Source of the DNA: Dysgonomonas sp. PF1-14
GTDB taxonomy: Bacteria > Bacteroidota > Bacteroidia > Bacteroidales > Dysgonomonadaceae
Length of the DNA: 64,000 bases
Direction: 5' to 3'
NCBI RefSeq assembly: GCF_029892965.1
Contig: NZ_JARXWN010000015.1
Coordinates: 1-64,000, forward strand
Every line of letters starts with the position of its first letter. Positions within the stretch are counted from its first letter, which is position 1. A model generated the notes under the pieces. The model had not been told where the DNA came from and searched no databases. It saw only the letters and a program-made list of their open reading frames with translations. Of this stretch, positions 5,027-21,405 are shown piece after piece. A program made the position numbers and the translations under genes.

Positions 5027-5037
5027 ATTATTTATTA

Positions 5038-5072
5038 CAAAAATAAGTAGTAAAAGCTGCAACCAAGTTGCA
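5038..5072 (-). promoter_or_regulatory. Promoter with palindromic (Fur-family type) operator upstream of the metal ATPase
   Basis: TGCAACCAAGTTGCA (5058-5072) is a palindrome with 6-bp arms. On the minus strand it lies exactly 12 bp upstream of a -7 box TATTTTTG (5038-5045), covering the -33 region. The same layout recurs at 11083-11117. A start near 5031 would give a leader of only a few bases before the ATG at 5026 or 5020. A repressor bound here would block RNA polymerase; that a Fur-family protein binds is inferred. Confidence 0.7.
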
Positions 5073-5088
5073 AACTTATCTTTGCAAA

Positions 5089-6288: not shown

Positions 6289-6292
6289 AATC

Positions 6293-7546: not shown

Positions 7547-7554
7547 AACTCCTT

Positions 7555-10500
7555 CTATTTTTTCGTGAATGTTTTATAAATCGAAGGCAGGACAACCAGT
7601 GTAAGTATCGTGGCAGTCAGCAATCCTCCTATAACGACAGTTGCCAGTGGTCTTTGCACTTCAGCTCCATCACTTGTAGATAGAGCCATCGGAAGAAATC
7701 CAAGAGACGCTACAAGAGCTGTCATGATTACAGGGCGAAGGCGTAACATACATCCTTTGACAATCCTTTCCTTTATATCCTTAATACCTTCCTTTTCAAA
7801 TAAGTTAAACTGCCCGATAAGTACAATACCATTCAATACGGCAACACCAAAGAGGGCTATAAAGCCGACGCCCGCCGAAATGCTGAAAGGCATTCCTCTT
7901 AGCCATAAGGCGAAAATACCACCTATTGCAGATAAAGGTATGGCTGTGAATACGAACAATGATTCCTTAACACTTCTCAATGTGGCATACAAAAGGAATA
8001 ATATCAGTAGCAATGCCAATGGTACGGCTACCATCAGCCTGTCTTTTGCTTCTTTCAGGTTCTGGAACTGTCCTCCGTAGGTATAATAATATCCGGCAGG
8101 TAATTTAAACTCCTTATCAAGTATTTTCTGAATATCATACACGGTATTCTGCACATCACGTCCTCTCACATTAAAACCAACGTAAATACGCCTTTCTGCA
8201 TCTTCACGGGTTACCTGTGCAGGTGCATCTTGGTATTTTATTTCAGCTACCTGTGAGAGAGGGATAGAACCGCCTGATTGAAGAGGTAGATATAGATTCT
8301 CCAATGAACTGATATCGTTCCTTAAATCTTTTTCCATCCGTAATACGAGGTCGAAACGACGATCTTCTTCAAATACATAACCTGCTTCATTGCCTGCGAA
8401 AGCTGTCTTTAATACCATGTTGGCATCTTTAATGGAAATACCGTATTTGGCTAACTGGTCACGGTTATAAACCACCTGTATCTGCGGTAATCCTGTTACC
8501 TTTTCGACAAAAGGATCGGTAACGCCTTCCACACTCTTAATAAGCGAAGCAACTTTATTAGCTGATGATGTAAGGACATCAAGGTCATTACCGTATATTT
8601 TAATGGCCACATCCTGTTTAATACCTGTAATCAATTCATTGGTACGCATCTGGATAGGCTGTGTCATTTCTATTTCCATACCGGGAATAACACTGACCGC
8701 CTCTTCCATCTTTTCCATCAGTTCTTCTTTTGTCCTAGCGGAAGTCCAATCTTTTTTCGGAATTAGAGCAATCATCATATCCGCCCTTTCAATAGGCATA
8801 GGGTCTGTCGGAATTTCAGCACTTCCGATACGTGATACTGCCTGTTTGACTTCAGGAAACTTCTCTTTGAGTATCTTTTCGGCTTGTGTTGTACTCTTTA
8901 CCATTTGTGACAAAGAGGTTCCCTGTGCCATACTAATCTCTGCTGCGAAGTCCCCTTCTTCAAGGTTTGGAATAAATTCACCACCCATCTTATTGAAAAC
9001 AAAAAGGCTTACAGCAAATAGAGCAATCATGCTTATTATTAATGTCTTGCTCCAGTTAAGGCTTTTGGTTATAATAGGACGATAGAATCCGCTTATCTTA
9101 TCCATCATTTTATCCGAGAAATTCCGTTTGTGTTCTGTTTTCTTGCTTAAAAACAATGCACTTGCCATCGGTACATAAGTCAGGGATAATATGAATGCTC
9201 CAAGTATCGCAAAGAATACGGTCATAGCCATTGGCTTGAACATCTTACCTTCGATACCAACTAATGTGAAAAGAGGTATATAAACAATCATAATGATTAT
9301 TTCACCGAATGCCGCACTGTTCCTTATTTTAGAAGCGGAGTCAAATACTTCCGTATCCATTTGCTTCTGTGTCAGGAGTGCTCCTTTATACTTGTCTTTC
9401 ATCACGCTTATATGGTGGCATACTGCCTCGACAATAATCACCGCCCCATCCACAATCAACCCGAAGTCAATCGCACCGAGGCTCATCAGGTTACCACTGA
9501 CTCCAAAGAGCCGCATCATACCGAATGCAAATAACATGGAAAGCGGAATAACGGAAGCTACGACCAAACCTGCTCTGTAATTTCCCAAAAACAGAACAAG
9601 GATAAATATCACAATCAATCCTCCTTCTACCAGATTCTTGGCAATGGTATTGGTAACCCTGTCAACCAGTTGTGTGCGGTCAATAAACGGCTCTATGATA
9701 ACTCCTTCGGGCAGGCTTTTCTGGACTTGCTCCATCCGTACTTTTACATTTTTAATAACATCCTGAAAGTTTTCTCCTTTTAGCATCAGGGTAATACCCG
9801 CTACAACTTCGCCTTCGCCATTACGGGTAACAGCACCGTATCTCATCGAACTGCCAAATTGCACTTTAGCAACATCCCTTACCAGTATAGGAGTACCGTT
9901 TACAGTTTTTACAGGAATTTTCTCTATATCTTCCAATGATCCTACCAGACCAATGCCACGTATGAAATACTGGTTACTATATTGCTCTATATAACTACCG
10001 CCTGTGTTCTCGTTATTATTTTCAAGGGCTGTGTACATTTCAGGAATAGTTATGCCTACGGCATTCAGTTTATCAGCATTGATGGCTATTTCATATTGTT
10101 TTACGAAGCCTCCCCAACCACTCACTTCGGCAACTCCTTCCGTGCCGGAAAGCTGTTTCCTAACAATCCAGTCCTGCATGGTACGTAAATCGGTAATACT
10201 GTATTTATCTTCGTATCCTTCTTTTGCCCGGATTGTATAGTGGTATATTTCTCCTAACCCAGTAGATATCGGAGCCAGACTGATTTTCCCCAAACCTTGG
10301 GGTATAACTTCTTCGGCTTCTTTCAACTGTTGGCTTACCTGTTGACGTGCCCAGTAGATATCGGCATTTTCTTTAAAAACTATAGTAATAACCGAAAGCC
10401 CACTACGGCTGATACTTCTTCTTTCTACAACTTTAGGAATATTGGCTAAGGCCATTTCCAAAGGAGTAGTTATAAATTGCTCTACCTCCTGTGCTCCCAA

Positions 10501-10665
10501 TGATGGAGCTTGTGTTATTACTTGTACCTGATTATTGGTTATATCAGGTGTTGAGTCGAATGGTAATTGTGACAACGAATAGCCTCCCCAGATTATAAGG
10601 GCTACAGTCATAACTCCAATCACCAATTTATTCTCTATTGAGAACTTAATCAGTTTTTGAAACAT
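7555..10665 (-). CDS. CzcA/CusA family heavy-metal RND efflux pump
   Basis: 1036 residues from the ATG at 10665 (the longer frame from 10689 adds eight residues with no homology-like character). It has the RND pattern: helix 1 near residue 12, a large periplasmic loop, helices 2-6 at about 335-480, a second loop, and helices 8-12 to the end. Helix 4 contains DFGLIVDGAVIIVEA; the D...D...E trio is the proton-relay signature of HME pumps such as CzcA. It exports divalent metal ions from the periplasm or cytoplasm with the adaptor and TolC protein downstream. The gene order pump-channel-adaptor-ATPase in one operon suggests joint Zn/Cd/Co detoxification. Exact ion cannot be read. Confidence 0.95.
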   Translation of the reverse strand: MFQKLIKFSIENKLVIGVMTVALIIWGGYSLSQLPFDSTPDITNNQVQVITQAPSLGAQEVEQFITTPLEMALANIPKVVERRSISRSGLSVITIVFKENADIYWARQQVSQQLKEAEEVIPQGLGKISLAPISTGLGEIYHYTIRAKEGYEDKYSITDLRTMQDWIVRKQLSGTEGVAEVSGWGGFVKQYEIAINADKLNAVGITIPEMYTALENNNENTGGSYIEQYSNQYFIRGIGLVGSLEDIEKIPVKTVNGTPILVRDVAKVQFGSSMRYGAVTRNGEGEVVAGITLMLKGENFQDVIKNVKVRMEQVQKSLPEGVIIEPFIDRTQLVDRVTNTIAKNLVEGGLIVIFILVLFLGNYRAGLVVASVIPLSMLFAFGMMRLFGVSGNLMSLGAIDFGLIVDGAVIIVEAVCHHISVMKDKYKGALLTQKQMDTEVFDSASKIRNSAAFGEIIIMIVYIPLFTLVGIEGKMFKPMAMTVFFAILGAFILSLTYVPMASALFLSKKTEHKRNFSDKMMDKISGFYRPIITKSLNWSKTLIISMIALFAVSLFVFNKMGGEFIPNLEEGDFAAEISMAQGTSLSQMVKSTTQAEKILKEKFPEVKQAVSRIGSAEIPTDPMPIERADMMIALIPKKDWTSARTKEELMEKMEEAVSVIPGMEIEMTQPIQMRTNELITGIKQDVAIKIYGNDLDVLTSSANKVASLIKSVEGVTDPFVEKVTGLPQIQVVYNRDQLAKYGISIKDANMVLKTAFAGNEAGYVFEEDRRFDLVLRMEKDLRNDISSLENLYLPLQSGGSIPLSQVAEIKYQDAPAQVTREDAERRIYVGFNVRGRDVQNTVYDIQKILDKEFKLPAGYYYTYGGQFQNLKEAKDRLMVAVPLALLLILFLLYATLRSVKESLFVFTAIPLSAIGGIFALWLRGMPFSISAGVGFIALFGVAVLNGIVLIGQFNLFEKEGIKDIKERIVKGCMLRLRPVIMTALVASLGFLPMALSTSDGAEVQRPLATVVIGGLLTATILTLVVLPSIYKTFTKK

Positions 10666-10744
10666 AATTTTGGAATTAAAATATAACAATTAGCTTTTAA
10701 GACATACCGATCGGGTACATCAAGACTTAATCAGATGTTATATT

Positions 10745-11062
10745 TTAAGCTTGCGGAGGTCGCCAGAGAGTAGAAAGAAATGAAGGAATCTCCTTATCAG
10801 TATATACTGCCATATGTTTGACATTTAAACTGGTATTACGGAGAATTATCTGATAGTTTGTAGTAATGTTTGGATTATGATGACTGGTACATGAACAAAA
10901 TGGTGTGCAGAACTCATTTCCTGAATCATCATGTTCTGTATCTGCCGTAGAAACCTGCTCTGTATTTTGTCCAAAAGTATTTGCTATCGGAACATCGCAG
11001 TGGCATGGTAGCACTGCAAGGATCAGAAAGTAAATACCTATTATGAATACAGATGATTTCAT
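10745..11062 (-). CDS. Small secreted protein of the efflux operon (DUF6660-like)
   Basis: A 105-residue protein from the ATG at 11062, which sits about 15 bp after the predicted start of transcription; the longer frame to 11107 would overlap the operator. It has a signal peptide (KSSVFIIGIYFLILAVLPCHC), then an acidic stretch and a cluster CTPFCSCTSHHNPN with three Cys and two His, a plausible metal ligand set. Small proteins of this kind (I believe DUF6660) often precede CusA/CzcA pumps in Bacteroidetes. It is the first gene behind the palindrome-controlled promoter. Function unknown; periplasmic metal binding or sensing is a guess. Confidence 0.72.
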   Translation of the reverse strand: MKSSVFIIGIYFLILAVLPCHCDVPIANTFGQNTEQVSTADTEHDDSGNEFCTPFCSCTSHHNPNITTNYQIILRNTSLNVKHMAVYTDKEIPSFLSTLWRPPQA

Positions 11063-11082
11063 TTTTTTCTTATTTCTATGTG

Positions 11083-11117
11083 CAAATGTATAACAAAAAA
11101 CATGCAACTAAGTTGCA
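11083..11117 (-). promoter_or_regulatory. Promoter with palindromic operator ahead of the efflux operon
   Basis: TGCAACTAAGTTGCA (11103-11117) lies 12 bp upstream of a -7 box TACATTTG (11083-11090, minus strand). It overlaps the stop codon of the Fur-family gene. With the site at 5058-5072 it shares AAGTTGCAAACTTAT on the plus strand and the identical spacing to the -7 box. Read as TTGCAA-N5-TTGCAT it resembles the arrangement I recall for the nickel regulator Nur. Confidence 0.72.
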
Positions 11118-11530
11118 AACTTATTACACTTACCACAATACCCTTTAATGACCAAGTTTACACTTTCTGCCTGCATGATCGGAGACAATTCGAAATTAGG
11201 TATGGATACATTTTCCAAACAGAAGGCCTTCTTACAATAGTTGCAATAGAAATGGGCATGCAGATCGTTTATATCACAGTTGCAGTCACTGTTGCAAACC
11301 GAATATTTTATAGAACCCGAGCCGTCATCAAAGCTATGTATCAATTGATTTTCGTGGAATAGGTGTATCGTGCGTGATATAGTTGACTTATCCACAGTTT
11401 CAAGCTTTGTCTCCAAATCAGATAAGTTAAAAGCCCTGTCGAAATCGATCATTGCTTTTAGAACCAATATGCGGGTGGATGTCGGTTTTATATTCCGACC
11501 TTCTAATAATTTTATAATATTCTCATTCAT
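11108..11530 (-). CDS. Fur-family metal-responsive repressor
   Basis: A 140-residue protein. A winged helix (residues 1-80: IKPTSTRILVLKAMIDFDRAF ... DKSTISRTIHLF) recognises DNA. The dimer domain carries HAHFYCNYCKK and a C-terminal CGKC, the two CxxC pairs that hold the structural zinc of Fur/Zur/PerR proteins. An extra Cys cluster (VCNSDCNCD) precedes the HAHF motif. It lies directly upstream of the efflux genes, and a palindrome at its 3' end plus a second one before the ATPase are probable binding sites. Whether it senses Zn, Ni or another ion is not readable. A typical Fur protein lets genes go when metal is absent; control of exporters suggests a different logic or an indirect one. Confidence 0.9.
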   Translation of the reverse strand: MNENIIKLLEGRNIKPTSTRILVLKAMIDFDRAFNLSDLETKLETVDKSTISRTIHLFHENQLIHSFDDGSGSIKYSVCNSDCNCDINDLHAHFYCNYCKKAFCLENVSIPNFELSPIMQAESVNLVIKGYCGKCNKFAT

Positions 11531-11594
11531 AATTGATAGTTATTAAATACAAATTTACTATATAACAAATTAGAATCCATTAATTTCATATTTT

Positions 11595-12401
11595 TTAAAA
11601 CTGCATCGAAAAAGCCAGCCCTCCTTGCTGTCCATTGTAAAATGGAGAAAAAGCTATATTGTTTTTATTCTTTTTATCCTGACCTCCATTAAATAACTTA
11701 TTTTCAACAGTAGGATATAACCAATAAGCAAGCTTTGTACTCAGAATGCCTAACCCTGCTCCGAAAGCTACATCACCAACCCAATGCTTATTATTATATA
11801 TCCTGAATGCTCCGGTTCCGGCAGCAATAGTATATCCTGCAATACCATACCAGATTGAAACATCTTTATATTCCTGCCATAAAAATTCGGCTCCCATGAA
11901 AGCTACAGCTGTATGTCCGGAGGGAAAAGAATTACGGTTGGACTTGTCGGGTCTTTCCACTTTTGCTGTGTATTTAATTGTATTGACGGAGGCAGCCATA
12001 AACAATGTAGACATACCCAAAATAATCGTCCTGTCTTTAAAGTTATGCTTACCTTTTATCCCTACTAAGTTCAGAGCATAAACACTGGCAGCAGGTACAT
12101 ATTGCGTAATATCATCTATTTGAAACCTTTCGGGTTTATGCGTTATCACTTCATGTCCTATAGCATAGTTTAACAATCGGTTTTTAGGGGCGAGAGTTGC
12201 TTCAATAGTTCCATACAACATTAATGTTCCGGGAACAATCAGTTGTTTGTATGAGAATTTGTCTGCACTCTTTATTTGAATACTGTCATTACTTGAAGAT
12301 AATTCATCATTCTCATCGGCATAAATGCTGTTTACACAAAGTAAGACCGAATATATTAGTGCAATAATCCTCAATGCTTTTTTTGATTTAAAAAACATCA
12401 T
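11595..12401 (-). CDS. PAP2-family phosphatase, exported
   Basis: 268 residues from the ATG at 12401 (ATG at 12398 equally possible; the 23-residue extension to 12470 precedes the signal peptide and is rejected). Signal peptide, then the three acid-phosphatase motifs: KVERPDKS, FPSGHTA and FRIYNNKHWVGD (catalytic His and Asp). Several hydrophobic helices flank these, and the protein ends in AFSMQF, an outer-membrane-like terminal Phe. The family removes phosphate from lipid pyrophosphates such as undecaprenyl-PP or modifies lipid A. It stands between the Fur gene and the His-rich genes and could be cargo; a link to metal stress is not shown. Confidence 0.9.
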   Translation of the reverse strand: MMFFKSKKALRIIALIYSVLLCVNSIYADENDELSSSNDSIQIKSADKFSYKQLIVPGTLMLYGTIEATLAPKNRLLNYAIGHEVITHKPERFQIDDITQYVPAASVYALNLVGIKGKHNFKDRTIILGMSTLFMAASVNTIKYTAKVERPDKSNRNSFPSGHTAVAFMGAEFLWQEYKDVSIWYGIAGYTIAAGTGAFRIYNNKHWVGDVAFGAGLGILSTKLAYWLYPTVENKLFNGGQDKKNKNNIAFSPFYNGQQGGLAFSMQF

Positions 12402-12504
12402 TCTTATTTTATTAATTGTGATTATTTGGATATAATATCGCCTTATGCAGTCGTATGGATACGAATACAATAATTATTAAGACTACTCGAAGTCAAAAGA
12501 TTAG

Positions 12505-12936
12505 TTATAAGAATGTAATGGGAGGTGCACGTAAACCATGAATACGGTTTGATTTTACAGAATTATAATTTAAGGTATATTTTTCGTAATCTATTTTAGA
12601 AAAAGATGCTGTTGTAACAAGATTCAATGAATCTGCTGTGATAAAAAATAAAGGGAATAAATCTTTATAATTATTATTGGAAAATGATTTAATATTTACT
12701 TCATCATTGATTTGTGTAATAGTAAACTCAAATTCAGTGATACAAGATTGGTCATGATTACTATTATCAGATGATTCATTGTGATGTGTATGCTTATCGT
12801 TTATTGTTCTATCTTCTTCACAAACTTCGATAATAAGACATGCTATTCCTGCATGGTGATGATGGGGAGCAATCGCAAGAATCAACAATATTATTGTTGA
12901 GAAAGCAAAAAATGATATGAGAAATTTTCTTTTCAA
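12505..12936 (-). CDS. His-rich small envelope protein (DUF6769-like)
   Basis: A 143-residue protein with an N-terminal membrane or signal segment (SFFAFSTIILLILAIA) followed at once by PHHHHAG, and a second His/Asp-rich stretch KHTHHNESSDNSNHDQS at about residues 48-64. The rest has alternating hydrophobic and polar residues and ends RIHGLRAPPITFL; an almost identical style of ending (RPPQA) is seen in the small efflux-operon protein at 10745. I think it belongs to DUF6769, but I am unsure. The His clusters suggest binding of Zn, Ni, Co or Cu at the periplasmic face. Confidence 0.65.
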   Translation of the reverse strand: MKRKFLISFFAFSTIILLILAIAPHHHHAGIACLIIEVCEEDRTINDKHTHHNESSDNSNHDQSCITEFEFTITQINDEVNIKSFSNNNYKDLFPLFFITADSLNLVTTASFSKIDYEKYTLNYNSVKSNRIHGLRAPPITFL

Positions 12937-13002
12937 ATCTTGTATAATAACTGGTGAAATGTATATTTATTATAAATATAATAAGAAATCAGCTTGTTTT
13001 AA

Positions 13003-13038
13003 AGATTAGATAAAGAGAGATGTCCCCTTATCTAATCT
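13003..13038 (-). terminator. Probable terminator of the His-rich lipoprotein gene
   Basis: AGATTAGATAA (13003-13013) pairs perfectly with TTATCTAATCT (13028-13038), 11 bp, loop of 14. Only a short T run follows on the minus strand. It begins 18 bp after the stop codon at 13057. Confidence 0.6.
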
Positions 13039-13056
13039 CAATTTACATTTGGAAAA

Positions 13057-13401
13057 TTAGTGGTGATTACTGTTCCCATGAGAGTGTCCATTCTTATCAT
13101 GTGTGCCATGATCCGATCCGTTGTGATGCGTACCGTCATGGTTTTGTCCCGAATGATCTGAATAAGCACATGCCTGATGAGTTCCATCGTTGTAGATATC
13201 ACAGTTTTCGTGGTTGCCAGCTACACATTGTTCTGCAACATTAGCTTTGTACGCTGCAACATCATCAAAACCTAAAGCTGCTGCTCTGACCTCAATATCC
13301 TGCTGTGAAGTTGTACCAAAATCATCATGATCATCGTTGCTACAAGCAATAAATGTTACTGCAAATAAAACCAATGCTAAGGAATAAAATAACTTTTTCA
13401 T
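13057..13401 (-). CDS. Histidine-rich metal-binding lipoprotein
   Basis: A 114-residue lipoprotein: signal with lipobox FIAC (Cys20), a short acidic linker (SNDDHDD), a compact middle (VRAAALGFDDVAAYKAN), a CVAGNHENCD segment, and a tail dense in His, Gly, Asp and Asn (HDGTHHNGSDHGTHD...). About one fifth of residues are His. Such tails chelate Zn, Ni, Co or Cu. It has its own ECF-type promoter (13457-13486), identical in design to that of the sigma operon next door, so it is probably induced with the TonB receptor. Likely a surface or periplasmic metal scavenger or buffer. The role is inference; composition and promoter are seen. Confidence 0.8.
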   Translation of the reverse strand: MKKLFYSLALVLFAVTFIACSNDDHDDFGTTSQQDIEVRAAALGFDDVAAYKANVAEQCVAGNHENCDIYNDGTHQACAYSDHSGQNHDGTHHNGSDHGTHDKNGHSHGNSNHH

Positions 13402-13456
13402 TTTCTTTTTTATTTTGAATTAATTAAACTGTTCGTTCCCGAAACGCTTTCATATA

Positions 13457-13486
13457 TGTACCGCACAAAGTAGATCTTACCCTACC
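13457..13486 (-). promoter_or_regulatory. ECF-sigma promoter of the His-rich lipoprotein gene
   Basis: On the minus strand: GGTAGGGTA, 14 bp, CGGTACA. It matches the sites before the sigma gene (17237-17266) and DUF3108 (18136-18165) in both boxes and in spacing. Start of transcription expected near 13450, giving a leader of about 50 bases. Confidence 0.75.
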
Positions 13487-13491
13487 TCAAA

Positions 13492-15930
13492 TCAAAAAAT
13501 TAATTCAAAAAAAACTGTTGGAGTGAATGGGGTGGCCTTTGTAAAGATGTTTGTAGCATTAGCTTGCCCCGAGACCTGATAATTATATTTTACGTTTTTA
13601 GTACCAAAAACATTCAATAGTGATACACCTGCTTGTAGTTTCACTTTCTTTATTTGTGTCCTGTATGTAGCTCCGATATCAAAACGGCTGTATGTTTCAT
13701 CGGAAGAATCTGTATGTTCGTGACTGGCTTCATGTTCACCTTCTTCGTTTCCTTGCCCATGTCCGTGTCCTCCTGTAGAGATGTAAGCAAATCCGGTTCC
13801 ATATACGTAACTCAAAGAAAAATAGAAAGGGTCAAATGCTCCGATACCTCCGACCTTAATTTCATGCGAAAGTTCGTTTTGTGGTCTTTTGATATTATTG
13901 ATAGAATATGAACTGTAGATAGTATGGTTATTCAGTTGTTTTTTGGCAAACAGGTCCGCCCCTAAGATAGTATTATCTATATTATAGACAGTGTTATCAA
14001 GGAAATACTGTCCGTTCTTTGTCTTTTTATGATATCCTTCGAGGCTGATTAAAAAGCCATCTTTACTATATGCAATACCAACAGTAGTATGCATTGCCTT
14101 TGTAAAAGTACTGTCTGCCATACTCCATACAGTCTGAATACCTGATTCATCATACTTGTAAGCAGTACGTGTAAGAAATTGGTTGTATAAGCCCCATGAG
14201 GCGGTTGCTGTTACCTGCTCCGATATTTTATATCTTCCAGAAATACGAGGCTGTACATATGCCTTTTTATTGATTGGCATATCTACTCTAATACCTGTAT
14301 TTAGAGACAATTTGCCCAATAATAGATTATCTGTTATGTAAAATGTAGGCTTATCCAGTTCTCCACATAAATCATTCAGGCTTACCTTGTATTGTTGCCA
14401 TTCTCCGCCAATCTGTATTTTATTACGCTTCCCAACAAAAAAATCGTGATTCAGTTTTATGGAAAATTCTTGAACGACATTATCCAGATGATTAACATCC
14501 ATAGGTGTCGGCTTACGGTTACCGACAATTGCCAGATTATCGAGCAAAGAAGTAAGTCGCGAAAAGGTTGCAAGTAGTTTAGTACTTGAGCCATTACTCC
14601 AGACACGCTTGTAAGATGTTGCCCCACCGTACTGCCTATTCTTTTCTGCAGCATTGATGTCATATTCATCTGGTTGTTTCACTGAGAATTTAAAGCGATC
14701 ATCTGCTCCGTATATACTGATATAATAAGAATCTTCGCTAAAAGCTTTTCCAGATAATTTGAAATTGGCATCCCTGAAATTATACTTTGGTTTAATGTAT
14801 ATATCTGAAAATATTTGCGAATTATTACCGTTATCACTACCATTTTTAGGTAACTCGACATTTCCACTATTATACAGATTATAAAAGGTCTGGCGATATG
14901 CGGCTGAAACATTGAGGTTCTTTGATAACGGAGCCGAAGCAAAAAGATTTGCGGTGTAATTACTTATGGTTGCTTTTACAGAAGGTGAATTAAAATCACC
15001 GTCTATACCCGTTATTTCAGAGATTGCTCCGATCCGTCCACCCTGATTGGCACTATATCCACCTTTCATGATGCGAATATCTTTTACCATATATGGATTG
15101 ACTGAACCGATATGGTCGTTGTAGTTCTTTATACCGAATAAGGTATATCCGTCGTAAGTTATTTTACTGTCACCTGCATTGCTTCCCCACACAATCAGGT
15201 CTTCCGATGGTTCACCAGATACCCTTACACCCGGCATCATACGCATCAGGTTGAAAACAGAATTATCAATACTTCCGGGAATATATTTTGCTACCTGATG
15301 GTTGATACGAATTTCACCGGGACTACCTCCCGATTGGATAAGTATTGTTGAGGGTGATGAACTGACAACGATTTCATCCATTGTATATATAACGGGAGAT
15401 AAATTGATTGTATTAAATCCGCTGGATAAAGTTGTATCTTGCTTCTCATAACCCAGATATTGAGCCAGTACAGGTAGTTTTCCTTTTCTTTCAGTTTTAA
15501 AGGTAAAATATCCTGTTTCATCTGTAGGAACCACTCCTTCAGAAGTAGTAATATAAGCATAGGGAAGATTTTCTCCGCTTTCAGCATCTTTTATCGTTCC
15601 CGAATAGGTATAATACTTCTTTGGCTGGATATTAACAGGCTGCTCTTTCTTTTCTGTAGAACGACTGATAACATACACTCCGTTTATATTTTCAAAGCGA
15701 AATGGCTTTTCTTTGAAAAGGAATTTAAGTGCTATTTCAGGACTATCAAATTTTTGGTTTACGGTAACCTTGTATTTTGCAAGGGCATTATCATCAAAAG
15801 AGATTTCAACAGGCAGGCTTCTCAATACTTCATTCAAAGGCTTGTCTTTAACCACTAAATGCAACTCTTGTGAAAAAGCTGCAATAGTATTCGTAAGAAT
15901 TATAACAAGTATGAAAAGTAATTTATTCAA
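13492..15930 (-). CDS. TonB-dependent receptor with STN signalling domain and His-rich loop
   Basis: An 812-residue outer-membrane receptor. After a signal peptide it has an STN (secretin/TonB) domain at about 22-88 (LHLVVKDKPLNEVLRSLP), a carboxypeptidase-like beta domain at 105-180, a plug (about 185-300, with LMRMMPGVRVSGE) and a beta barrel ending in VFFELIF. An extracellular loop near residue 715-740 reads HGHGQGNEEGEHEASHEH, a metal-ligand-like stretch. The STN domain transmits ligand occupancy to the FecR protein encoded immediately upstream (adjacent, no gap). Together they form a FecI/FecR/FecA-like trans-envelope circuit, probably for a metal ion or metallophore. The ligand is inferred from the His loop and neighbours. 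Confidence 0.92.
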   Translation of the reverse strand: MNKLLFILVIILTNTIAAFSQELHLVVKDKPLNEVLRSLPVEISFDDNALAKYKVTVNQKFDSPEIALKFLFKEKPFRFENINGVYVISRSTEKKEQPVNIQPKKYYTYSGTIKDAESGENLPYAYITTSEGVVPTDETGYFTFKTERKGKLPVLAQYLGYEKQDTTLSSGFNTINLSPVIYTMDEIVVSSSPSTILIQSGGSPGEIRINHQVAKYIPGSIDNSVFNLMRMMPGVRVSGEPSEDLIVWGSNAGDSKITYDGYTLFGIKNYNDHIGSVNPYMVKDIRIMKGGYSANQGGRIGAISEITGIDGDFNSPSVKATISNYTANLFASAPLSKNLNVSAAYRQTFYNLYNSGNVELPKNGSDNGNNSQIFSDIYIKPKYNFRDANFKLSGKAFSEDSYYISIYGADDRFKFSVKQPDEYDINAAEKNRQYGGATSYKRVWSNGSSTKLLATFSRLTSLLDNLAIVGNRKPTPMDVNHLDNVVQEFSIKLNHDFFVGKRNKIQIGGEWQQYKVSLNDLCGELDKPTFYITDNLLLGKLSLNTGIRVDMPINKKAYVQPRISGRYKISEQVTATASWGLYNQFLTRTAYKYDESGIQTVWSMADSTFTKAMHTTVGIAYSKDGFLISLEGYHKKTKNGQYFLDNTVYNIDNTILGADLFAKKQLNNHTIYSSYSINNIKRPQNELSHEIKVGGIGAFDPFYFSLSYVYGTGFAYISTGGHGHGQGNEEGEHEASHEHTDSSDETYSRFDIGATYRTQIKKVKLQAGVSLLNVFGTKNVKYNYQVSGQANATNIFTKATPFTPTVFFELIF

Positions 15931-16713
15931 TTATTTGATTTTAAATTCAATACCGAAGGGTTTGCCTACTATCTTAAGTACATCATTCGGATTTTGTGCT
16001 TTTGTAAAATTACCTGAGTAAAGATAGTCTAAATTTGAACTTGGCTGTACTTCAATGTCGTATTGTCTTTCGATTTCCTGAATAACTTCTTTGAGTGGTA
16101 CACTGACAAAAACAAATTTTCCTTCTTTCCAGTCAATTGTTTCTTTTACATTTTCTATATCTTTTACAATTAGCTTATTATTCCATAAAGCTTGCATATT
16201 TGGAGTAAGAATTACGGATTCCGTTTTATCCGATACATTCACTTTTCCGGTAAGACAGGTAACAGTAAATTTATCTGCACGAGAAAATACATTGAAACTT
16301 GTTCCCAGCACACTTACCATATATTGATTCGAGTGAACATTAAACGTGCTTCCTTTCTCAACTTCAAAATAAGCTTCTCCTTTTAGCTTCACATTCCGTG
16401 AAACATACCACCATAGAGGTTTATAACTGATTTCACTTTCTGCATTCAGATCGACTTTGGAACCGTCAGGTAATACAACAGCTAAATGATTACCTCTTCC
16501 CGCAACCTCATTTTTAGTATAGATAAAAGCTATATTAGGCAGTAGTATGATAATGGCAGCCACTGAAGCAGCAGCGTAAAACCAAAGTGATTTTCGTTTC
16601 GGTTCTTTCCCTTGTGTAGTGGTTTCTTCTGTTAAATCTGCAAAGGTTTCATTCCAGATTTCATCTTTGCTCTTTTTCCACTGGGGTTCTATTTTTATTT
16701 TGTCAGTATTCAT
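15931..16713 (-). CDS. FecR-type anti-sigma factor
   Basis: A 260-residue inner-membrane protein: a cytoplasmic N-terminus that would hold the sigma factor (EPQWKKSKDEIWNETF), one membrane helix at about 43-66, a FecR domain (LAVVLPDGSKVDLNAESEISY region, 80-180), and a C-terminal DUF4974 domain (VPLKEVIQEIERQYDIEV ... LKIVGKPFGIEF) like an STN partner. It receives the signal from the TonB receptor and releases or activates the sigma factor. Located 12 bp downstream of the sigma gene and directly before the receptor gene; one operon. Confidence 0.93.
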   Translation of the reverse strand: MNTDKIKIEPQWKKSKDEIWNETFADLTEETTTQGKEPKRKSLWFYAAASVAAIIILLPNIAFIYTKNEVAGRGNHLAVVLPDGSKVDLNAESEISYKPLWWYVSRNVKLKGEAYFEVEKGSTFNVHSNQYMVSVLGTSFNVFSRADKFTVTCLTGKVNVSDKTESVILTPNMQALWNNKLIVKDIENVKETIDWKEGKFVFVSVPLKEVIQEIERQYDIEVQPSSNLDYLYSGNFTKAQNPNDVLKIVGKPFGIEFKIK

Positions 16714-16725
16714 AGTGTATACTTT

Positions 16726-17214
16726 TTAGAGTAATTCTTTTTTCAGATAAGCTAAAGCTGTACTGATACGCTTCTCTACAGCTTTAATACTAATGTTTAA
16801 GTTTTCTGCAATCTCATGATACTTTAAGCCTTCATTACGATTCATCAGGAATGTTATCCGCTGATTCTCTGGCATATCAGCTAAGGCCTTTGAATAAGTA
16901 GTTTTCAGCTCTTCAAACTGCACTATTTCTTCGGGAGACGCATGATAATCCTGCCCTATAGTCATGCTCTGTTCAAAATTAAGCTGGGTTTGCCCCTTAC
17001 GGTAATCCGATATAACCATATCATTCGCCATCTTATAAAGCAGGCTTTTAATATCACTTACCTTAAACTGCTCACGTTTCTCCCAAATCTTCATGAAAAC
17101 CTCCTGTGTTATATCAGATGCGGTTTCTGTATCCCCGCACCTGTAATAGACAAAGCTTCTGATTGTATCGAAATATTTGTCGAACAGTTCTTTAAATTCT
17201 ATTTTACTTATCAC
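16726..17214 (-). CDS. ECF RNA polymerase sigma factor (sigma-70 family)
   Basis: A 162-residue ECF sigma factor: region 2 at about 10-75 (RCGDTETASDITQEVFMKIWEKR binds the -10 box) and region 4 at about 105-160 (EGLKYHEIAENLNISIKAVEKRI). It belongs to the Bacteroidetes FecI-like group paired with FecR and a TonB receptor. Its promoter (17237-17266) carries the same GTAGGGTA-N14-CGGTATA motif as two other genes nearby, so it very probably drives its own operon plus the His-rich lipoprotein and DUF3108. The motif is seen; sigma binding is inferred. Confidence 0.93.
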   Translation of the reverse strand: MISKIEFKELFDKYFDTIRSFVYYRCGDTETASDITQEVFMKIWEKREQFKVSDIKSLLYKMANDMVISDYRKGQTQLNFEQSMTIGQDYHASPEEIVQFEELKTTYSKALADMPENQRITFLMNRNEGLKYHEIAENLNISIKAVEKRISTALAYLKKELL

Positions 17215-17236
17215 TTCAATGATATCTTTTTATTCC

Positions 17237-17266
17237 TATACCGTTTGAAAAAGGAATTACCCTACC
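17237..17266 (-). promoter_or_regulatory. Autoregulatory ECF-sigma promoter
   Basis: GGTAGGGTA-N14-CGGTATA on the minus strand, with the -10 box ending 22 bp before the sigma ATG. It defines a start near 17230 and a leader of about 16 bases. Confidence 0.75.
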
Positions 17267-17301
17267 AAGGTATTCGTTTTTTATGAGTTATGTTATCTAT
17301 A

Positions 17302-18114
17302 TCAGTTGTTTTTTAGTGGATACTTATTCCCTAAAATCTTTTTTAAAAGGACATAGCTAGAACCTACTTTAAGTTTGGAATTAATTCGTACGGGAATACG
17401 GTTTTGGTCGTTTGTTATATAAATTTTCATAGCTTCCTTTTTATCTTCGAATGCTTTATCGCTTATTACCAAAGTCAGAACAATACAGTCATAATTCTTA
17501 CCATCATTTGCATCTATTTTCTCTGTGCCATTGTATTTGATTTTTATATCTACTTTTGTTTTACCGGATATGAGCAAACTATTCTTTGATTCTCCCGTCT
17601 TCATCTGCTTATAGTCTAGAGTACGTGCATAGTAAACTACGGTCATCATATCATAGATGCATTTTTCAGAAGTAATAATAGTATCATGACGAAGTTTATT
17701 ACTACGGGTCAGTTTTGTATGTACATCGACGTTACCCGAAGAATAATTATAGGTGATGTATTCTTGTGTATAGTCGCTTCCTTCATGTGCATATTTTGTA
17801 TAGGAAAGAGGTTCAAGAGTTTTGCTCATATAACAATACATCGTATCGGAAAGTGTAAAAACTTTTTTTGCCAAACCTGTGGAATTGGCAATCATAGTCA
17901 TTTTATAAGCATCTTGTCCTTTATACCTATCATCTTTTGTTCTTAGAGTAGAAGTGCCTGCTTTTTTATGTAAAAGACCGTATTTAAAATATACATCATA
18001 CGTCAGTTCTTCCCCTGATTGGAATGTATTATTTGTTATGCCACATTGTCCTTTAAGCTGTAAGCCTATTAAAAGGGCTAAAATTATTATAGAAATTTTT
18101 ATTATGATTCTCAT
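17302..18114 (-). CDS. Secreted DUF3108 protein
   Basis: A 270-residue exported protein: signal peptide (ISIIILALLIGLQLKGQ), then a DUF3108 domain starting NNTFQSGEELTYDVYFKYGLL, with GTSTLRTKD and a late RNRIPVRINSKLKVGS-like segment (QNRIPVRINSKLKVGSSY) typical of this beta-rich family. DUF3108 proteins are periplasmic and of unknown function. Its promoter (18136-18165) has the ECF motif shared with the sigma operon and His-rich lipoprotein, so it belongs to the same regulon and could act in the response to the receptor's ligand. Confidence 0.85.
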   Translation of the reverse strand: MRIIIKISIIILALLIGLQLKGQCGITNNTFQSGEELTYDVYFKYGLLHKKAGTSTLRTKDDRYKGQDAYKMTMIANSTGLAKKVFTLSDTMYCYMSKTLEPLSYTKYAHEGSDYTQEYITYNYSSGNVDVHTKLTRSNKLRHDTIITSEKCIYDMMTVVYYARTLDYKQMKTGESKNSLLISGKTKVDIKIKYNGTEKIDANDGKNYDCIVLTLVISDKAFEDKKEAMKIYITNDQNRIPVRINSKLKVGSSYVLLKKILGNKYPLKNN

Positions 18115-18135
18115 ATCTGAATCTATTATTTATAA

Positions 18136-18165
18136 TATACCGTATGAGAATCAAAATACCCTACT
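18136..18165 (-). promoter_or_regulatory. ECF-sigma promoter of the DUF3108 gene
   Basis: AGTAGGGTA, 14 bp, CGGTATA on the minus strand, ending 21 bp before the start codon; third copy of the motif in 5 kb. Confidence 0.75.
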
Positions 18166-18236
18166 AATACAATATATCTTCTTGAAAATCTTTTCTAATG
18201 ACCATTATTTTAAAGTATTTATTTTGGACTTAAAAC

Positions 18237-18477
18237 TATGAATTTACAAGAAATTTTTTCTATCTTTGAGGTTAGAAGTTAGGCGTACAGCGGTCTGCCA
18301 AAACAAGACAAAAAGGCATCATTTTAATCGTTACGAATTCGTTACGGACTAGCCTTTTGAAAAACTTAAACGATTGATTATTATATCTATTACGAGATAA
18401 AAAAAGTGTTCCCGCTCGGATCACTGGAAAGCAAAGGTTGTCAGTTTTGGCAACCTTTTGTTGTTTTAGTACAGAAT
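18237..18477 (+). ncRNA. Candidate non-coding transcript or island-end remnant
   Basis: On the plus strand a promoter-like TATG-N20-TATCTTTG (18237-18268) is followed about 165 bp later by a hairpin AAAGGTTG/CAACCTTT (18433-18458) with T-rich sequence after it. The roughly 195-base interval has no convincing ORF. It contains a direct repeat CGTTACGAATTCGTTACG (18330-18347 region). It may be a small RNA. It may also be the remains of an attachment region, because it lies where the accessory island ends. It fills most of the 378-bp gap between DUF3108 and the next gene. Confidence 0.4.
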
Positions 18478-18492
18478 AGAACAGAAACGGAT

Positions 18493-19329
18493 TTATTTTT
18501 CCTTCTTATTGAGCATTATCTCCAAATCTGATTCAGCTTTTCCTTCTAAGACTCTTATTACATCATTATGTAATTTTTCGAAGTCAATAACTTCTTTGTA
18601 AGTATACGCATAAAGGGTTCCTCTTTGTTCGCCCTGAGTCGTATTTACGTATTTTGTCAAGACATAGTCGAAGGAAGAATTGCTGGAATGAAACATTAAC
18701 ACATGTAACCGATATAATTGGTCTTTATCGCTTCCATCAGGATTGGTACTATATACATAGTAAACAACCTTTGTAAAACTTGAAGAAAATCTATCTTTTG
18801 GTAATTCTGCATACCATTCATAGCCCCAAATATTCTTGTCTTCCCATTTGAAATAGTCAAAATTAAAATGTTCATCAATTCCCTGAGGTAGCATCTTTTC
18901 TCTATATGATTTATATAATAAGTCTTTATATTCTTTTGCAACGCTATATTTTCCTAATCCGATATTTGAAACAATAATGTTCTTAATCATAAAGGGCTCT
19001 CTGTGTGCAAAATCTATATCAAAAAACTCTTTTCCATTTTGTATCAGTTCCAAAGATTCCATACCATATTGCAATGACTTTTCAAAATCCTGAGCCATTC
19101 TGCTTTCCTGTTCCAGAATAGTTGTAATCTGAACTTGATACCATATAACCTTAGCATACAGAGAATCTGATTTAGATAGTTGTTTTTCGAGTTCCTTAAA
19201 TTTGAAATATGCTTTTTCTATTTCATAATTCTGTAGTAAACTATCTGCAGTATTATATTCTTTTGCAAAATGGTCTTGGGCATTGATAAATGCAGGTATC
19301 AAGAGTAATAGAAATAGTATTTTTTTCAT
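18493..19329 (-). CDS. Exported hypothetical protein with helical repeats
   Basis: A 278-residue protein with a signal peptide (ILFLLLLIPAFINAQ) and a helical N-terminal half (YNTADSLLQNYEIEKAYFKFKELEKQL) that looks like one or two TPR-like units, followed by a mixed domain (about 160-260) with many aromatic residues (NIWGYEWYAELPKDRFS). I do not recognise the family. It is transcribed toward DUF3108 but separated by 378 bp, and lies 62 bp from the membrane protein gene upstream on the same strand, so those two may be one unit. Confidence 0.65.
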   Translation of the reverse strand: MKKILFLLLLIPAFINAQDHFAKEYNTADSLLQNYEIEKAYFKFKELEKQLSKSDSLYAKVIWYQVQITTILEQESRMAQDFEKSLQYGMESLELIQNGKEFFDIDFAHREPFMIKNIIVSNIGLGKYSVAKEYKDLLYKSYREKMLPQGIDEHFNFDYFKWEDKNIWGYEWYAELPKDRFSSSFTKVVYYVYSTNPDGSDKDQLYRLHVLMFHSSNSSFDYVLTKYVNTTQGEQRGTLYAYTYKEVIDFEKLHNDVIRVLEGKAESDLEIMLNKKEK

Positions 19330-19391
19330 AGTATCCTTTGAATATTAGATTTAAATATACTTCTTTAATTTATATAACTTAATCGAATCCT

Positions 19392-19964
19392 CTAGAATTT
19401 GGTTTGGGAATAGTTGTTGACACCGTGAAGCAAAAGCTTGTTAGTTTTGGCTAGCTCTTTTCTTCTATATTCCGAATAATTCCAATTATAAAATGCAATA
19501 TCTGTCAATAAGAAGATAAATAATACTATAAGTAATATCTCTTTTTTATAAGACTTACTAGTCTGTACATATTTTTTTTGATTAAAGAATAAGAATACTA
19601 ATAGACCGATAGGAATTAGTATTGTAATCCACCATGAATCTAAGTTATCCTGATAGCCTTTCAAGAAATCTATTATATTAATATTTATAGGATATAGGAT
19701 GATGAACAACCCTGATAACCTATAAAGAAATGCGCCTTTTGGCTTATTTACAAATATCAAAATTGCAGATATTACTAGTAAAGTCCCCAAGATAAACCCT
19801 AATACCAAAGTTGTCATAGGTAGCATTACAAACCATAATGAGTTTGTGAAATGGTATCCATAGATCAGATATATAGACCGATAAATTAAGAGTCCGCCAA
19901 TACCGAATGGTATTATGGCAATCAGAATCTCAATAATGAGGTCTTTTTTTGATTGGTCTTTCAT
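19392..19964 (-). CDS. Hypothetical multi-pass membrane protein
   Basis: A 190-residue protein with about five hydrophobic segments (near residues 10-30, 43-68, 78-95, 112-126 and 145-160), a basic middle loop (NQKKYVQTSKSYKKE) and a basic C-terminus. No family is recognised. AT-rich and next to an exported hypothetical; probably still part of the accessory region or its edge. Confidence 0.6.
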   Translation of the reverse strand: MKDQSKKDLIIEILIAIIPFGIGGLLIYRSIYLIYGYHFTNSLWFVMLPMTTLVLGFILGTLLVISAILIFVNKPKGAFLYRLSGLFIILYPININIIDFLKGYQDNLDSWWITILIPIGLLVFLFFNQKKYVQTSKSYKKEILLIVLFIFLLTDIAFYNWNYSEYRRKELAKTNKLLLHGVNNYSQTKF

Positions 19965-20129
19965 ATATTAGAGTTTTAATTAAATGTTAAATATACTCTT
20001 TTAACTGATATAATTTCCTCTAAAGCGTTATGAAATTCTAATTAAATTATCTATACGGTAAAAGCATTGAATTGTGGATTAAGAGATGATGTATAAATTG
20101 ATAGTAGAATTTAGATATTATTTTTTGTC

Positions 20130-20137
20130 TATATTTG
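20130..20137 (+). promoter_or_regulatory. -7 promoter box of the tautomerase gene
   Basis: TATATTTG matches the Bacteroidetes TAnnTTTG box, 33 bp before the ATG at 20171; the -33 box is weak. Confidence 0.5.
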
Positions 20138-20170
20138 ATAGTTATTTAAATAATTAAAATAAAGATAATT

Positions 20171-20551
20171 ATGCCAACTGTAAAAGTAGAATTGAGAGAG
20201 GGTAGGAGTATAGAGACTTTGCTTAAGTTGAGAGATGCGGTAACGGACGCTGTTGTTGAATCATTACAATTACCGGATGACGATAGAAATATCAGGATAA
20301 TTGAATATAAACCTGAATTCTTTCAAATGAAAGCCCCTTGTGAAATTCTGATAGAGATCTCATTGTTTAAAGGAAGAACAAAGGCTACAAAGAAGAAGTT
20401 ATATAAAAATATTGTAGACGGACTTGATACTATAAATATAGAGAAGGAGAAAATTATGATTTTTCTAAACGAACAACCTGCGGAAAATTGGGGCGTACGC
20501 GGAGGTCTTCCTGCTGATGAAGTCGATTTAGGGTTTAAAGTAGATGTTTGA
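20171..20551 (+). CDS. Tautomerase-family protein
   Basis: A 126-residue protein starting MPTVKVEL, so removal of Met exposes the catalytic Pro1 of the 4-oxalocrotonate tautomerase superfamily. The helix EGRSIETLLKLRDAVTDAV and the closing strand with NWGVRGGLPADE are typical of the longer (about 125-residue) members that carry two beta-alpha-beta units. Substrate unknown; such enzymes move a proton between keto and enol forms. Single gene on the plus strand, between the accessory region and the tRNA pair. Confidence 0.85.
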   Translation: MPTVKVELREGRSIETLLKLRDAVTDAVVESLQLPDDDRNIRIIEYKPEFFQMKAPCEILIEISLFKGRTKATKKKLYKNIVDGLDTINIEKEKIMIFLNEQPAENWGVRGGLPADEVDLGFKVDV

Positions 20552-20630
20552 TCGCAAGAGGTGGCTATCATTTATTGCTGGTTTACTACTTGGTTTACCT
20601 CACCACTGTAAACCTAGCTAAAACCATAAC

Positions 20631-20663
20631 AAAAAAAGACACCTACATTTCTGTAAGTGTCTC
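20631..20663 (-). terminator. Intrinsic terminator of the tRNA-Tyr/Gly transcript
   Basis: GACACCTACA/TGTAAGTGTC stem with a TTTC loop; on the minus strand it is followed by seven T residues (20631-20637). It lies 9 bp after the tRNA-Gly 3' end. Confidence 0.8.
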
Positions 20664-20671
20664 TTCATCAG

Positions 20672-20744
20672 AGCGGAAGACGGGGCTCAAACCCGCGACC
20701 CTCAGCTTGGAAGGCTAATGCTCTATCAACTGAGCTACTTCCGC
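20672..20744 (-). tRNA. tRNA-Gly (anticodon TCC)
   Basis: A 73-base cloverleaf: acceptor GCGGAAG/CTTCCGC, D-arm GCTCAGTTGATAGAGC, anticodon stem TTAGC/GCTGA with loop CTTCCAA (anticodon TCC), T-arm GCGGGTTTGAGCCCCGT. Discriminator base U, usual for glycine. CCA is not encoded. Its 3' end faces the accessory island. Confidence 0.95.
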
Positions 20745-20750
20745 AAAGTA

Positions 20751-20836
20751 TGGTGGGCAGTGAAGGATTCGAACCTCCGAAGTCGAAAGACAGCTGAGTT
20801 ACAGTCAGCCCCAGTTGGCCACTTTGGTAACTGCCC
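20751..20836 (-). tRNA. tRNA-Tyr (anticodon GTA)
   Basis: Acceptor GGGCAGT/ACTGCCC, anticodon stem GCTGA/TCAGC with loop CTGTAAC (anticodon GTA), long variable arm as in class II tRNAs, T-loop GGTTCGAATCC. ACCA follows the acceptor, so CCA appears encoded. It lies 6 bp upstream of tRNA-Gly, a pairing common in Bacteroidales. Confidence 0.95.
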
Positions 20837-20871
20837 TTGCATAATTGCGAATGCAAAAGTAACACTTTTTT

Positions 20872-21369
20872 TTATTCTGCCAAATTTCTACGATAAAAAT
20901 CGATCATTTTTATCGCTGTAATAGCGCATTCGTCACCTTTGTTACCATGTCGTCCTCCGGCACGTTCTTCTGCCTGCATCATGGTATCGGTAGTCAATAA
21001 GCCGAAGATGAAAGGAATATCGTAGCGGATATTCATATCGGCGATTCCTTGTGTCACTCCACTGCACACATAGTCGAAGTGAGGTGTATCGCCTCTTACT
21101 ACACAGCCGAGTGCTATGACGGCGTCGACCTCCTTATTCTCTACCATATGTTTTGTGCCGAAGATAAGCTCAAAGCTTCCCGGTACATAGTCGATGAGGA
21201 TATTTTCATCCTTCACTCCGTTTTTGATGAGGGTGTTGTAAGCTCCTTCGAGTAGCGCTTTGGTAATATTCTCGTTCCACTCTGATACTATGATACCTAT
21301 TTTCATGTCTGCTCCATTAGGAACAGTTGCAGGGTTGTAAGACGATAAGTTATGATAAGCTGTTGCCAT
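20872..21369 (-). CDS. ribH: 6,7-dimethyl-8-ribityllumazine synthase
   Basis: A 165-residue enzyme joining 5-amino-6-ribitylamino-uracil and dihydroxybutanone phosphate, the step before riboflavin. Seen: the [13 protein letters not shown] start of the fold, the phosphate loop [10 protein letters not shown], and the catalytic region [16 protein letters not shown] (His near residue 100). Length is normal. It ends the dtd-mazG-deoC-ribH run on the minus strand, 36 bp after deoC; the tRNA pair lies beyond. Confidence 0.97.
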
Positions 21370-21405
21370 GTTATTTAGTTATGGATTATAAGTTATAATG
21401 TATTA

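Follow-up and report, generated by a model that had tools for sequence, protein, structure and literature searches.

We report that three copies of a two-box sequence, GTAGGGTA-N14-CGGTAYA, in a 64,000-nucleotide stretch of DNA from Dysgonomonas sp. PF1-14 (contig NZ_JARXWN010000015.1, positions 1 to 64,000; "the window" means this whole stretch) are very probably the promoters of an extracytoplasmic function (ECF) sigma factor encoded at 16726-17214. Sequence comparisons point to a circuit resembling that of FecI, FecR and a TonB-dependent receptor, which would be autoregulated in this sigma clade because a site stands before the sigma gene itself, and in which lipoproteins would be the usual further output. 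Computation shows the motif itself, its restriction to these three sites in the genome, and the way it co-occurs with the sigma factor and co-varies with the sigma clade.

The two-box motif in the window and in the genome

The motif has three exact matches in the window, all on the minus strand and each with a gap of 14 bases (Table 1), as a first-pass annotation made from the letters alone had proposed. That annotation had placed the three sites correctly and had set their ends one position too high, each site being 29 bases long. One site precedes the DUF3108 gene, another lies between DUF3108 and the sigma gene, and the last is in the intergenic region between the receptor gene and that of a His-rich lipoprotein. 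The start codon lies 21 nt beyond the second box for DUF3108, 22 nt for the sigma factor (a GTG start) and 55 nt for the lipoprotein; the first-pass annotation had given 21 to 56 bp. A fourth copy had been said to be missing from the window, and none was found with up to two mismatches; two matches with three mismatches are in line with chance expectation.

A whole-genome scan with the two boxes, suggested as a check by the same annotation, covered 4,584,363 bases and returned only the three exact copies, no match with one mismatch and eight with two, which supports a small, local set. Seven of these eight look coding and fall within frames of 145 codons or more without a stop. With up to three mismatches allowed, the motif (184 matches) was not commoner than the reversed control (253), and meaning was therefore restricted to near-exact copies. 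The base-weighted score of the three window sites was 60.4 bits against a shuffle mean of 43.8, none of 400 shuffles being as high; of 600 triples drawn from the window's other upstream regions, four scored as high. Counting identical columns without weights gave 15 and no significance, with as many as 16 reached in 200 shuffles. Taken by itself, the window gives moderate evidence for a shared motif, and the reality of the motif was settled by comparison across genomes. No copy was found inside the metal-efflux cluster (3095-11107). Scans for terminator-like (5 versus 3.9) and sigma70-like (37 versus 35.4) signals gave counts near chance, and an Rfam scan of positions 10000-22000 returned two tRNAs and nothing else.

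The motif follows the sigma factor across genomes

We looked for the motif and for the sigma gene in other genomes (G and L numbers below denote genomes and loci). Among 25 genomes of the genus, the exact motif, with gaps of 13 to 16 allowed, was present in five and a sigma orthologue (E-value below 1e-50) in four, all four being among those five (hypergeometric 4e-4). Among 393 genomes of the order, 14 exact copies were detected in nine genomes and a close relative of the sigma factor (E<=1e-38) in 30. Eight of the nine were among the 30 (hypergeometric 3.8e-9), and in the ninth, G121, a less close relative (1e-36) adjoins the site. The reversed pattern was found in 4 of the 393 genomes, with one match each.

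The same association was seen at the level of single loci. Counting the window's own, 17 of 33 sigma genes have the motif (up to two mismatches, gap 14) within 400 nt upstream. Across 25 non-redundant named loci, the motif was found in 7, 15 and 20 at zero, up to one and up to two mismatches; gaps of 10-13 and 15-18 gave none, and permuted boxes (100 permutations) gave averages of 0, 0 and 0.28. The corresponding counts in 54 more distant loci were 0, 0 and 3, these three being no higher than the permuted maximum. Locus L139, a 99.98 % copy of L138, was left out of these counts and of the sigma tree. The place before the sigma gene is occupied in relatives, and the position of the lipoprotein promoter is also occupied, with two mismatches, in Dysgonomonas sp. 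521 (NZ_QVMO01000052.1; L137), whose sigma factor is 91 % identical to that of the window.

The first box was then sought upstream of paralogous sigma genes. GTAGGGT was present in one of 24 paralogue loci and missing from 23 (L088 was left out of this count, of the sigma tree and of the residue comparison), and a single promoter common to all Bacteroidota ECF sigma factors was rejected on this ground. By sequence, the window arrangement has what is expected of an autoregulated ECF promoter, namely a sigma-specific two-box motif before the sigma factor's own gene, conserved together with the orthologue. This footprinting across relatives and the co-variation of sigma clade and promoter described below strongly support the earlier proposal, in which the sigma factor encoded next to the motif recognizes it and drives its own operon; recognition by this sigma factor appears probable.

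The second box changes with the sigma clade

A tree of 102 sigma rows (L139, L088, L076 and L077 left out) placed all 16 rows with a CGGTA box in one clade of 28 (100/99), clade A, which is that of the window, and all 28 rows with a TGTY box in one clade of 34 (100/99), the mainly flavobacterial sister clade B. The rule used to label the tree sought each box on one strand only and left 12 clade-A and 6 clade-B rows without a site; we therefore searched each clade for either box on each strand. Between -2.5 and +4.5 kb on the sense strand, clade A had GTAGGG-N16-CGGT in 21 of its 27 loci and GTAGGG-N16-TGT[TC] in none, and clade B had the CGGT core in none of its 34 loci and the TGT[TC] core in all 34. 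On the other strand, the CGGT core was found in none of the 27 and none of the 34, and the TGT[TC] core in 1 of 27 and 29 of 34. In the clade-B controls, no locus matched at another gap, and no more than 2 of 34 matched with a permuted first box. First box and gap thus stay constant, and the second box follows the sigma clade.

The position of the sites also differs. In clade A, the site is often ahead of the sigma gene or of a gene preceding it. In clade B (L171-L205, L215), the sense sites of 32 of 34 loci lie around the sigma-FecR junction, just before FecR, the exceptions being L187 (before sigma) and L172 (behind the receptor). Of the 54 distant loci, mostly from flavobacteria, 30 carry GTAGGG[T/G] in the 300 nt ahead of sigma, on the opposite strand (32 sites). 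In 27 of these sites a TGTY-type box follows after exactly 14 bases, and no other gap from 9 to 21 gives more than two. These sites point away from sigma, and a lipoprotein-like gene lies there in 20 of the 30 loci, as counted by a simple regular expression that missed at least two. Clade B would accordingly have a FecI-like layout, in which FecR-receptor and a divergent lipoprotein are driven and the sigma gene stays outside the promoter.

We compared the residues of 28 clade-A, 33 clade-B and 20 paralogous sigma factors (L088, L076, L077, L080, L083 and the clade-B row L215 left out), using region boundaries that we take to be the usual ones. Fourteen positions separate the clades. Four of them (61, 65, 68 and 69) fall where, in the alignment, SigW and SigE have their -10 reading segment, and one of the four, position 65, carries Asp in clade A and Asn in SigW, SigE, clade B and most paralogues. 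Seven positions are common to both clades and rare in paralogues; of these, 145, 148 and 149 fall in the predicted recognition helix of region 4, for the -35 box. According to PMC8103513, the -10 specificity element is loop L3 of region 2.3, and ECF sigma factors are redirected when it is exchanged.

Lipoproteins as the probable usual further output

To see which genes follow the sites, we surveyed 37 clade loci (27 named and ten fetched by place, seven of the ten chosen for an exact motif). An intact core and at most two mismatches were required, and some two-mismatch sites may have been missed. The 38 sites precede a lipoprotein-like gene in 22 cases, the sigma gene in 12, another gene in three and a contig end in one, and one of the three other genes (L161) plainly encodes a lipoprotein. 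The His-rich type is under the motif in the window, in L138 and, with two mismatches, in L137. A DUF2202 lipoprotein with a His-rich tail, presumably ferritin-like, was found in G228 (8.6e-26) and G303 (8.1e-28), a Met/His-rich lipoprotein and a YHS lipoprotein (YHS 3.9e-12) in G302, and singletons in G374 and G237. Of the 22 lipoprotein-like outputs, 13 or more are members of, or similar to, an unnamed family with the C-terminal motif YG(D/N)G.CD; this family was noted at loci L128, L131, L142, L143, L144, L145, L148, L151, L153, L160 and L162. No Pfam family was found in the three members scanned (L128, L142 and L144), and the model of the L144 protein (predicted local distance difference test, pLDDT, 75.0) had no fold match in the PDB at E<=0.001.

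The first-pass annotation had tied two proteins of unknown function to the circuit. For the lipoprotein the tie is supported, the site behind the receptor gene recurring in relatives; for DUF3108, the exact promoter is the one piece of evidence. A Pfam scan of the His-rich lipoprotein gave no match above the cut-off. Its sequence CSNDDHDD resembles the lipoprotein export signal (LES) for surface export in Bacteroidetes, the consensus in Bacteroides fragilis being SDDDD according to PMC5080379, and the protein may be located at the surface.

Proposed mechanism

From these patterns, we infer how the circuit would work. Region 4 of the sigma factor would read GTAGGGTA as the -35 box and region 2 would read CGGTAYA as the -10 box, the gap being fixed at 14 bases. 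Without signal, FecR would hold the sigma factor; a ligand on the TonB-dependent receptor would cause a signal to pass to FecR, and the sigma factor would become active. It would then transcribe its own operon (sigma-FecR-receptor), the His-rich lipoprotein gene behind the receptor and DUF3108 ahead of sigma. As both the receptor operon and the lipoprotein gene would be transcribed by the same sigma factor, receptor and lipoprotein would be made together.

DUF3108

The DUF3108 protein scored 138.9 bits with its family (gathering cut-off 26), and its AlphaFold model had a mean pLDDT of 86.8. In Foldseek the model matched EipB of Brucella (DUF1849; PDB 6NTR) with an E-value of 1.4e-7, a template modeling (TM) score of 0.54-0.60 on the query and 8-9 % identity. 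An axonemal protein chain (9fqr) matched almost equally (1.8e-7), and the EipB-like fold is therefore no proof of function. The families differ as well, the Pfam scan giving DUF3108 alone, and single-sequence and profile searches of the PDB returned no sequence relative. EipB is presented in PMC10787603 as a periplasmic envelope-integrity protein of unsettled role.

Some DUF3108 homologue exists in 22 of the 25 genus genomes. The window protein is closest to the copies of G001 (60 %) and G018 (55 %), the other copy in its own genome being 50 % identical. DUF3108 as a standard partner of the sigma factor was rejected: the locus of Dysgonomonas sp. 521 has none, and the nearest homologues, in G001 and G018, are beside PAP2. 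In clade B, a weak homologue lies about 1.8 kb upstream of sigma in L172. We conjecture that DUF3108 is an EipB-like periplasmic barrel, probably a lineage-specific addition that would support the envelope. As a separate observation, the nearest homologue comes just after a PAP2 gene in both G001 (L217 10903-13399) and G018 (L218 7485-9214), the cluster of the window likewise contains a PAP2 gene, and G001 has, by eye, a second PAP2-like gene after the homologue.

The locus and its neighbourhood

The order of genes on the minus strand is DUF3108, sigma, FecR, TonB-dependent receptor, His-rich lipoprotein, DUF6769, PAP2, FUR-like, DUF6660, CusA/CzcA pump, outer-membrane efflux protein, HlyD/CusB and P-type ATPase (Table 1). 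The sigma factor has the properties of the ECF group (group IV), with only sigma2 and sigma4 domains and a small size. Its FecR-domain partner adjoins it, and the start of FecR lies no more than 700 nt behind sigma in 73 of 80 named loci. The receptor has a His-rich loop, GGHGHGQGNEEGEHEASHEH, close to its C-terminus. The DUF6769 and PAP2 genes are possibly on the lipoprotein transcript.

Table 1. Promoter sites and genes of the sigma locus in the window
Feature	Position	Strand	Evidence and remarks
DUF3108 promoter	18136-18164	minus	-35 box GTAGGGTA 18157-18164, -10 box CGGTATA 18136-18142; exact match
DUF3108 protein, 270 amino acids	17302-18114	minus	Pfam PF11306, E 2.7e-40; signal-peptide-like N-terminus (by eye)
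Sigma promoter	17237-17265	minus	-35 box 17258-17265, -10 box 17237-17243; exact match
ECF sigma factor, 162 amino acids	16726-17214	minus	Pfam Sigma70_r2 and Sigma70_r4_2
FecR-type sigma regulator	15931-16713	minus	Pfam FecR 4.5e-17, FecR_C 6.1e-10; one hydrophobic stretch (by eye)
TonB-dependent receptor, 812 amino acids	13492-15930	minus	Plug 2.8e-7, CarbopepD_reg_2 9.9e-10; possible N-terminal signalling domain
Lipoprotein promoter	13457-13485	minus	-35 box 13478-13485, -10 box 13457-13463; exact match
His-rich lipoprotein, 114 amino acids	13057-13401	minus	Sequence; Cys then SNDDHDD
DUF6769 small protein	12505-12936	minus	Pfam 8.9e-14
PAP2 phosphatase	11595-12470	minus	Pfam 5.2e-14
FUR-family regulator, adjoining the metal-efflux cluster	11108-11530	minus	Pfam 2.6e-5
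Metal-efflux cluster (context only)	3095-11107	minus	DUF6660, CusA/CzcA resistance-nodulation-division (RND) pump, outer-membrane efflux protein (OEP), HlyD/CusB, P-type ATPase with CPC motif

Some observations were made on the loci of relatives. A stretch of 11.7 kb holding sigma, receptor and lipoprotein is 99.98 % identical between Bacteroides sp. 519 and Parabacteroides sp. PF5-9 (L138 and L139), and G008 carries 11.7 kb in two pieces (L094/L095) that are 99.8-99.99 % identical to it; a recent horizontal transfer of this stretch is likely. In Dysgonomonas sp. 521, an arsenic-type cluster (L137 4255-9748) with an ArsR-type regulator, LMWPc, an SBF-type transporter, ArsD and ArsA lies ahead of the sigma locus.

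Is the signal a metal?

The first-pass annotation had spoken of a metal regulon, and the evidence for this part is circumstantial. Histidine binds metals, and the His-rich receptor loop is common to the window, L137 and L138. Metal-type lipoproteins of four kinds (His-rich, Met/His-rich, YHS and DUF2202-His) are under the motif in different genomes. Metal-efflux genes adjoin the window unit, and the CPC motif of their P-type ATPase is one that we take to be of the Zn/Cd/Pb type. The arsenic-type cluster ahead of the sister locus in Dysgonomonas sp. 521 points the same way. On the other side, the commonest output, the YG(D/N)G.CD family, shows no metal signature, and the receptors of 13 of 16 relatives have no loop-like 30-residue stretch with more than four His; a possible His-rich loop was seen in L137, L138, L221 (6 His in 30 residues) and, weakly, L227. 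For the window species, we consider it fairly probable that the receptor takes a divalent metal or metal complex as its ligand and that the lipoprotein binds metal at the surface, the metal being a conjecture, and we hold this with less confidence for the clade.

The other possibility, to which we give clearly less than an even chance, is that the link between sigma factor and promoter is right and the signal is not a metal. The circuit would then be a general surface-nutrient or envelope circuit that makes the partner lipoprotein of the receptor, and the His-rich protein would be a local variant. The prevalence of YG(D/N)G.CD outputs, which have neither Pfam family in the members scanned nor fold match at E<=0.001, and the scarcity of His-rich loops in relatives favor it, but the recurrence of the four metal-type lipoproteins under one promoter and the adjoining efflux genes speak against it.

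Other readings of the three sites

Several observations weigh against the sites being promoters of the neighbouring sigma factor in a FecI-like circuit. Among the 25 near loci, 10 have no site at up to one mismatch and 5 have none at up to two. Ten of the 14 clade-separating residues are outside the -10 stretch and four of the seven common ones outside the -35 helix. A signalling domain of the STN type was not found above the cut-off in the receptor, the N-terminus of which weakly resembles FecR_C (E 0.0087, below cut-off), that of its orthologue resembling STN (E 0.01, below cut-off). DUF3108 is beside sigma in the window alone among the clade-A loci examined. In G411, a contig with no detectable sigma gene carries an exact copy (L226 1396-1424), 34 nt ahead of a small gene. 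Finally, G001 holds the motif without a sigma orthologue, though its locus resembles a deletion scar. There, the site (L096 8138-8166) is 112 nt before FUR, followed by efflux genes, and sigma and receptor are gone; a RibD_C gene and the promoter region align with the DNA immediately ahead of the L138 sigma gene (74.6 % over 816 bases), and a PAP2 homologue lies about 9 kb farther along. It looks as if sigma and the following genes had been lost from this locus.

The G001 site would also suit two readings that we judge improbable, each to the same degree. The repeats could serve as operators bound by a repressor or an activator, for instance the FUR-family protein, whose gene is close by in the window and behind the G001 site; however, the two boxes are unlike, their gap is fixed and the second changes with the sigma clade, and a FUR homologue was found in just 4 of 85 fetched loci (L095, L096, L097 and L137, L097 being the same as L137), though some loci end before the expected place. 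Likewise, another ECF sigma factor could read the sites, as the genome has 16 matches to this one at E<=0.001, itself included, and G001 has kept a site without the orthologue; but the motif tracks this particular orthologue across genomes, and the first box is missing upstream in nearly all paralogue loci. To chance or AT-rich composition as the cause of the resemblance we give almost no weight: a few triples in the window do score as high, but the gap and permutation controls in relatives disfavor it.

Relation to known systems and significance

FecI-like sigma factors are numerous in Bacteroidota. With the FecI-FecR-FecA system of E. coli (ferric citrate) the window locus shares an ECF sigma factor, a FecR-domain regulator and a TonB-dependent receptor encoded together; in contrast to it, the window clade has its site before sigma itself and lipoproteins as further outputs. 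FecI is named as an exception to ECF autoregulation in PMC8103513, and clade B, in which the site is between sigma and FecR in 32 of 34 loci and sigma is outside the promoter, is like FecI. Formal membership of the window locus in the FecI/FecR/FecA class is incomplete because the receptor signalling domain is below cut-off. The best named family for the sigma factor is the Bacteroidota ECF family TIGR02985 (Sig70_bacteroi1), with a nearly full-length match that scores 125.9 bits against a cut-off of 126.4; the first box sets the window clade apart from the paralogues of 23 of 24 loci. BtuB-BtuG and similar Bacteroides pairs are likewise described as combining a receptor with a surface lipoprotein for ligand capture, but the pair of the window is a putative one and would be regulated by an ECF sigma factor. 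Literature searches aimed at this sigma clade met no described promoter, most subscription journals being outside their coverage.

Taken together, the results lead us to favor, by a narrow balance, a Bacteroidota-wide ECF-FecR-receptor circuit that has a single promoter grammar, in which GTAGGGTA is followed by 14 bases and then by a -10 box specific to the clade. The flavobacterial branch would drive FecR-receptor and a divergent lipoprotein, not sigma. The window branch would have moved the promoter to sigma, gaining autoregulation, and would have repeatedly swapped its lipoprotein output (His-rich, DUF2202-His, Met/His-rich, YHS and YGDG). Region 2 and the -10 box would have changed together, region 4 and the -35 box having stayed. 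The lipoprotein would be a ligand-capturing partner of the receptor, and the loop would assemble the receptor-lipoprotein machine on demand. With a promoter defined by sequence, targets may be read from genomes and unnamed lipoproteins linked to receptors. The existence of two -10 dialects, and what looks like a change from a FecI-like layout to autoregulation, would be natural experiments in circuit evolution.

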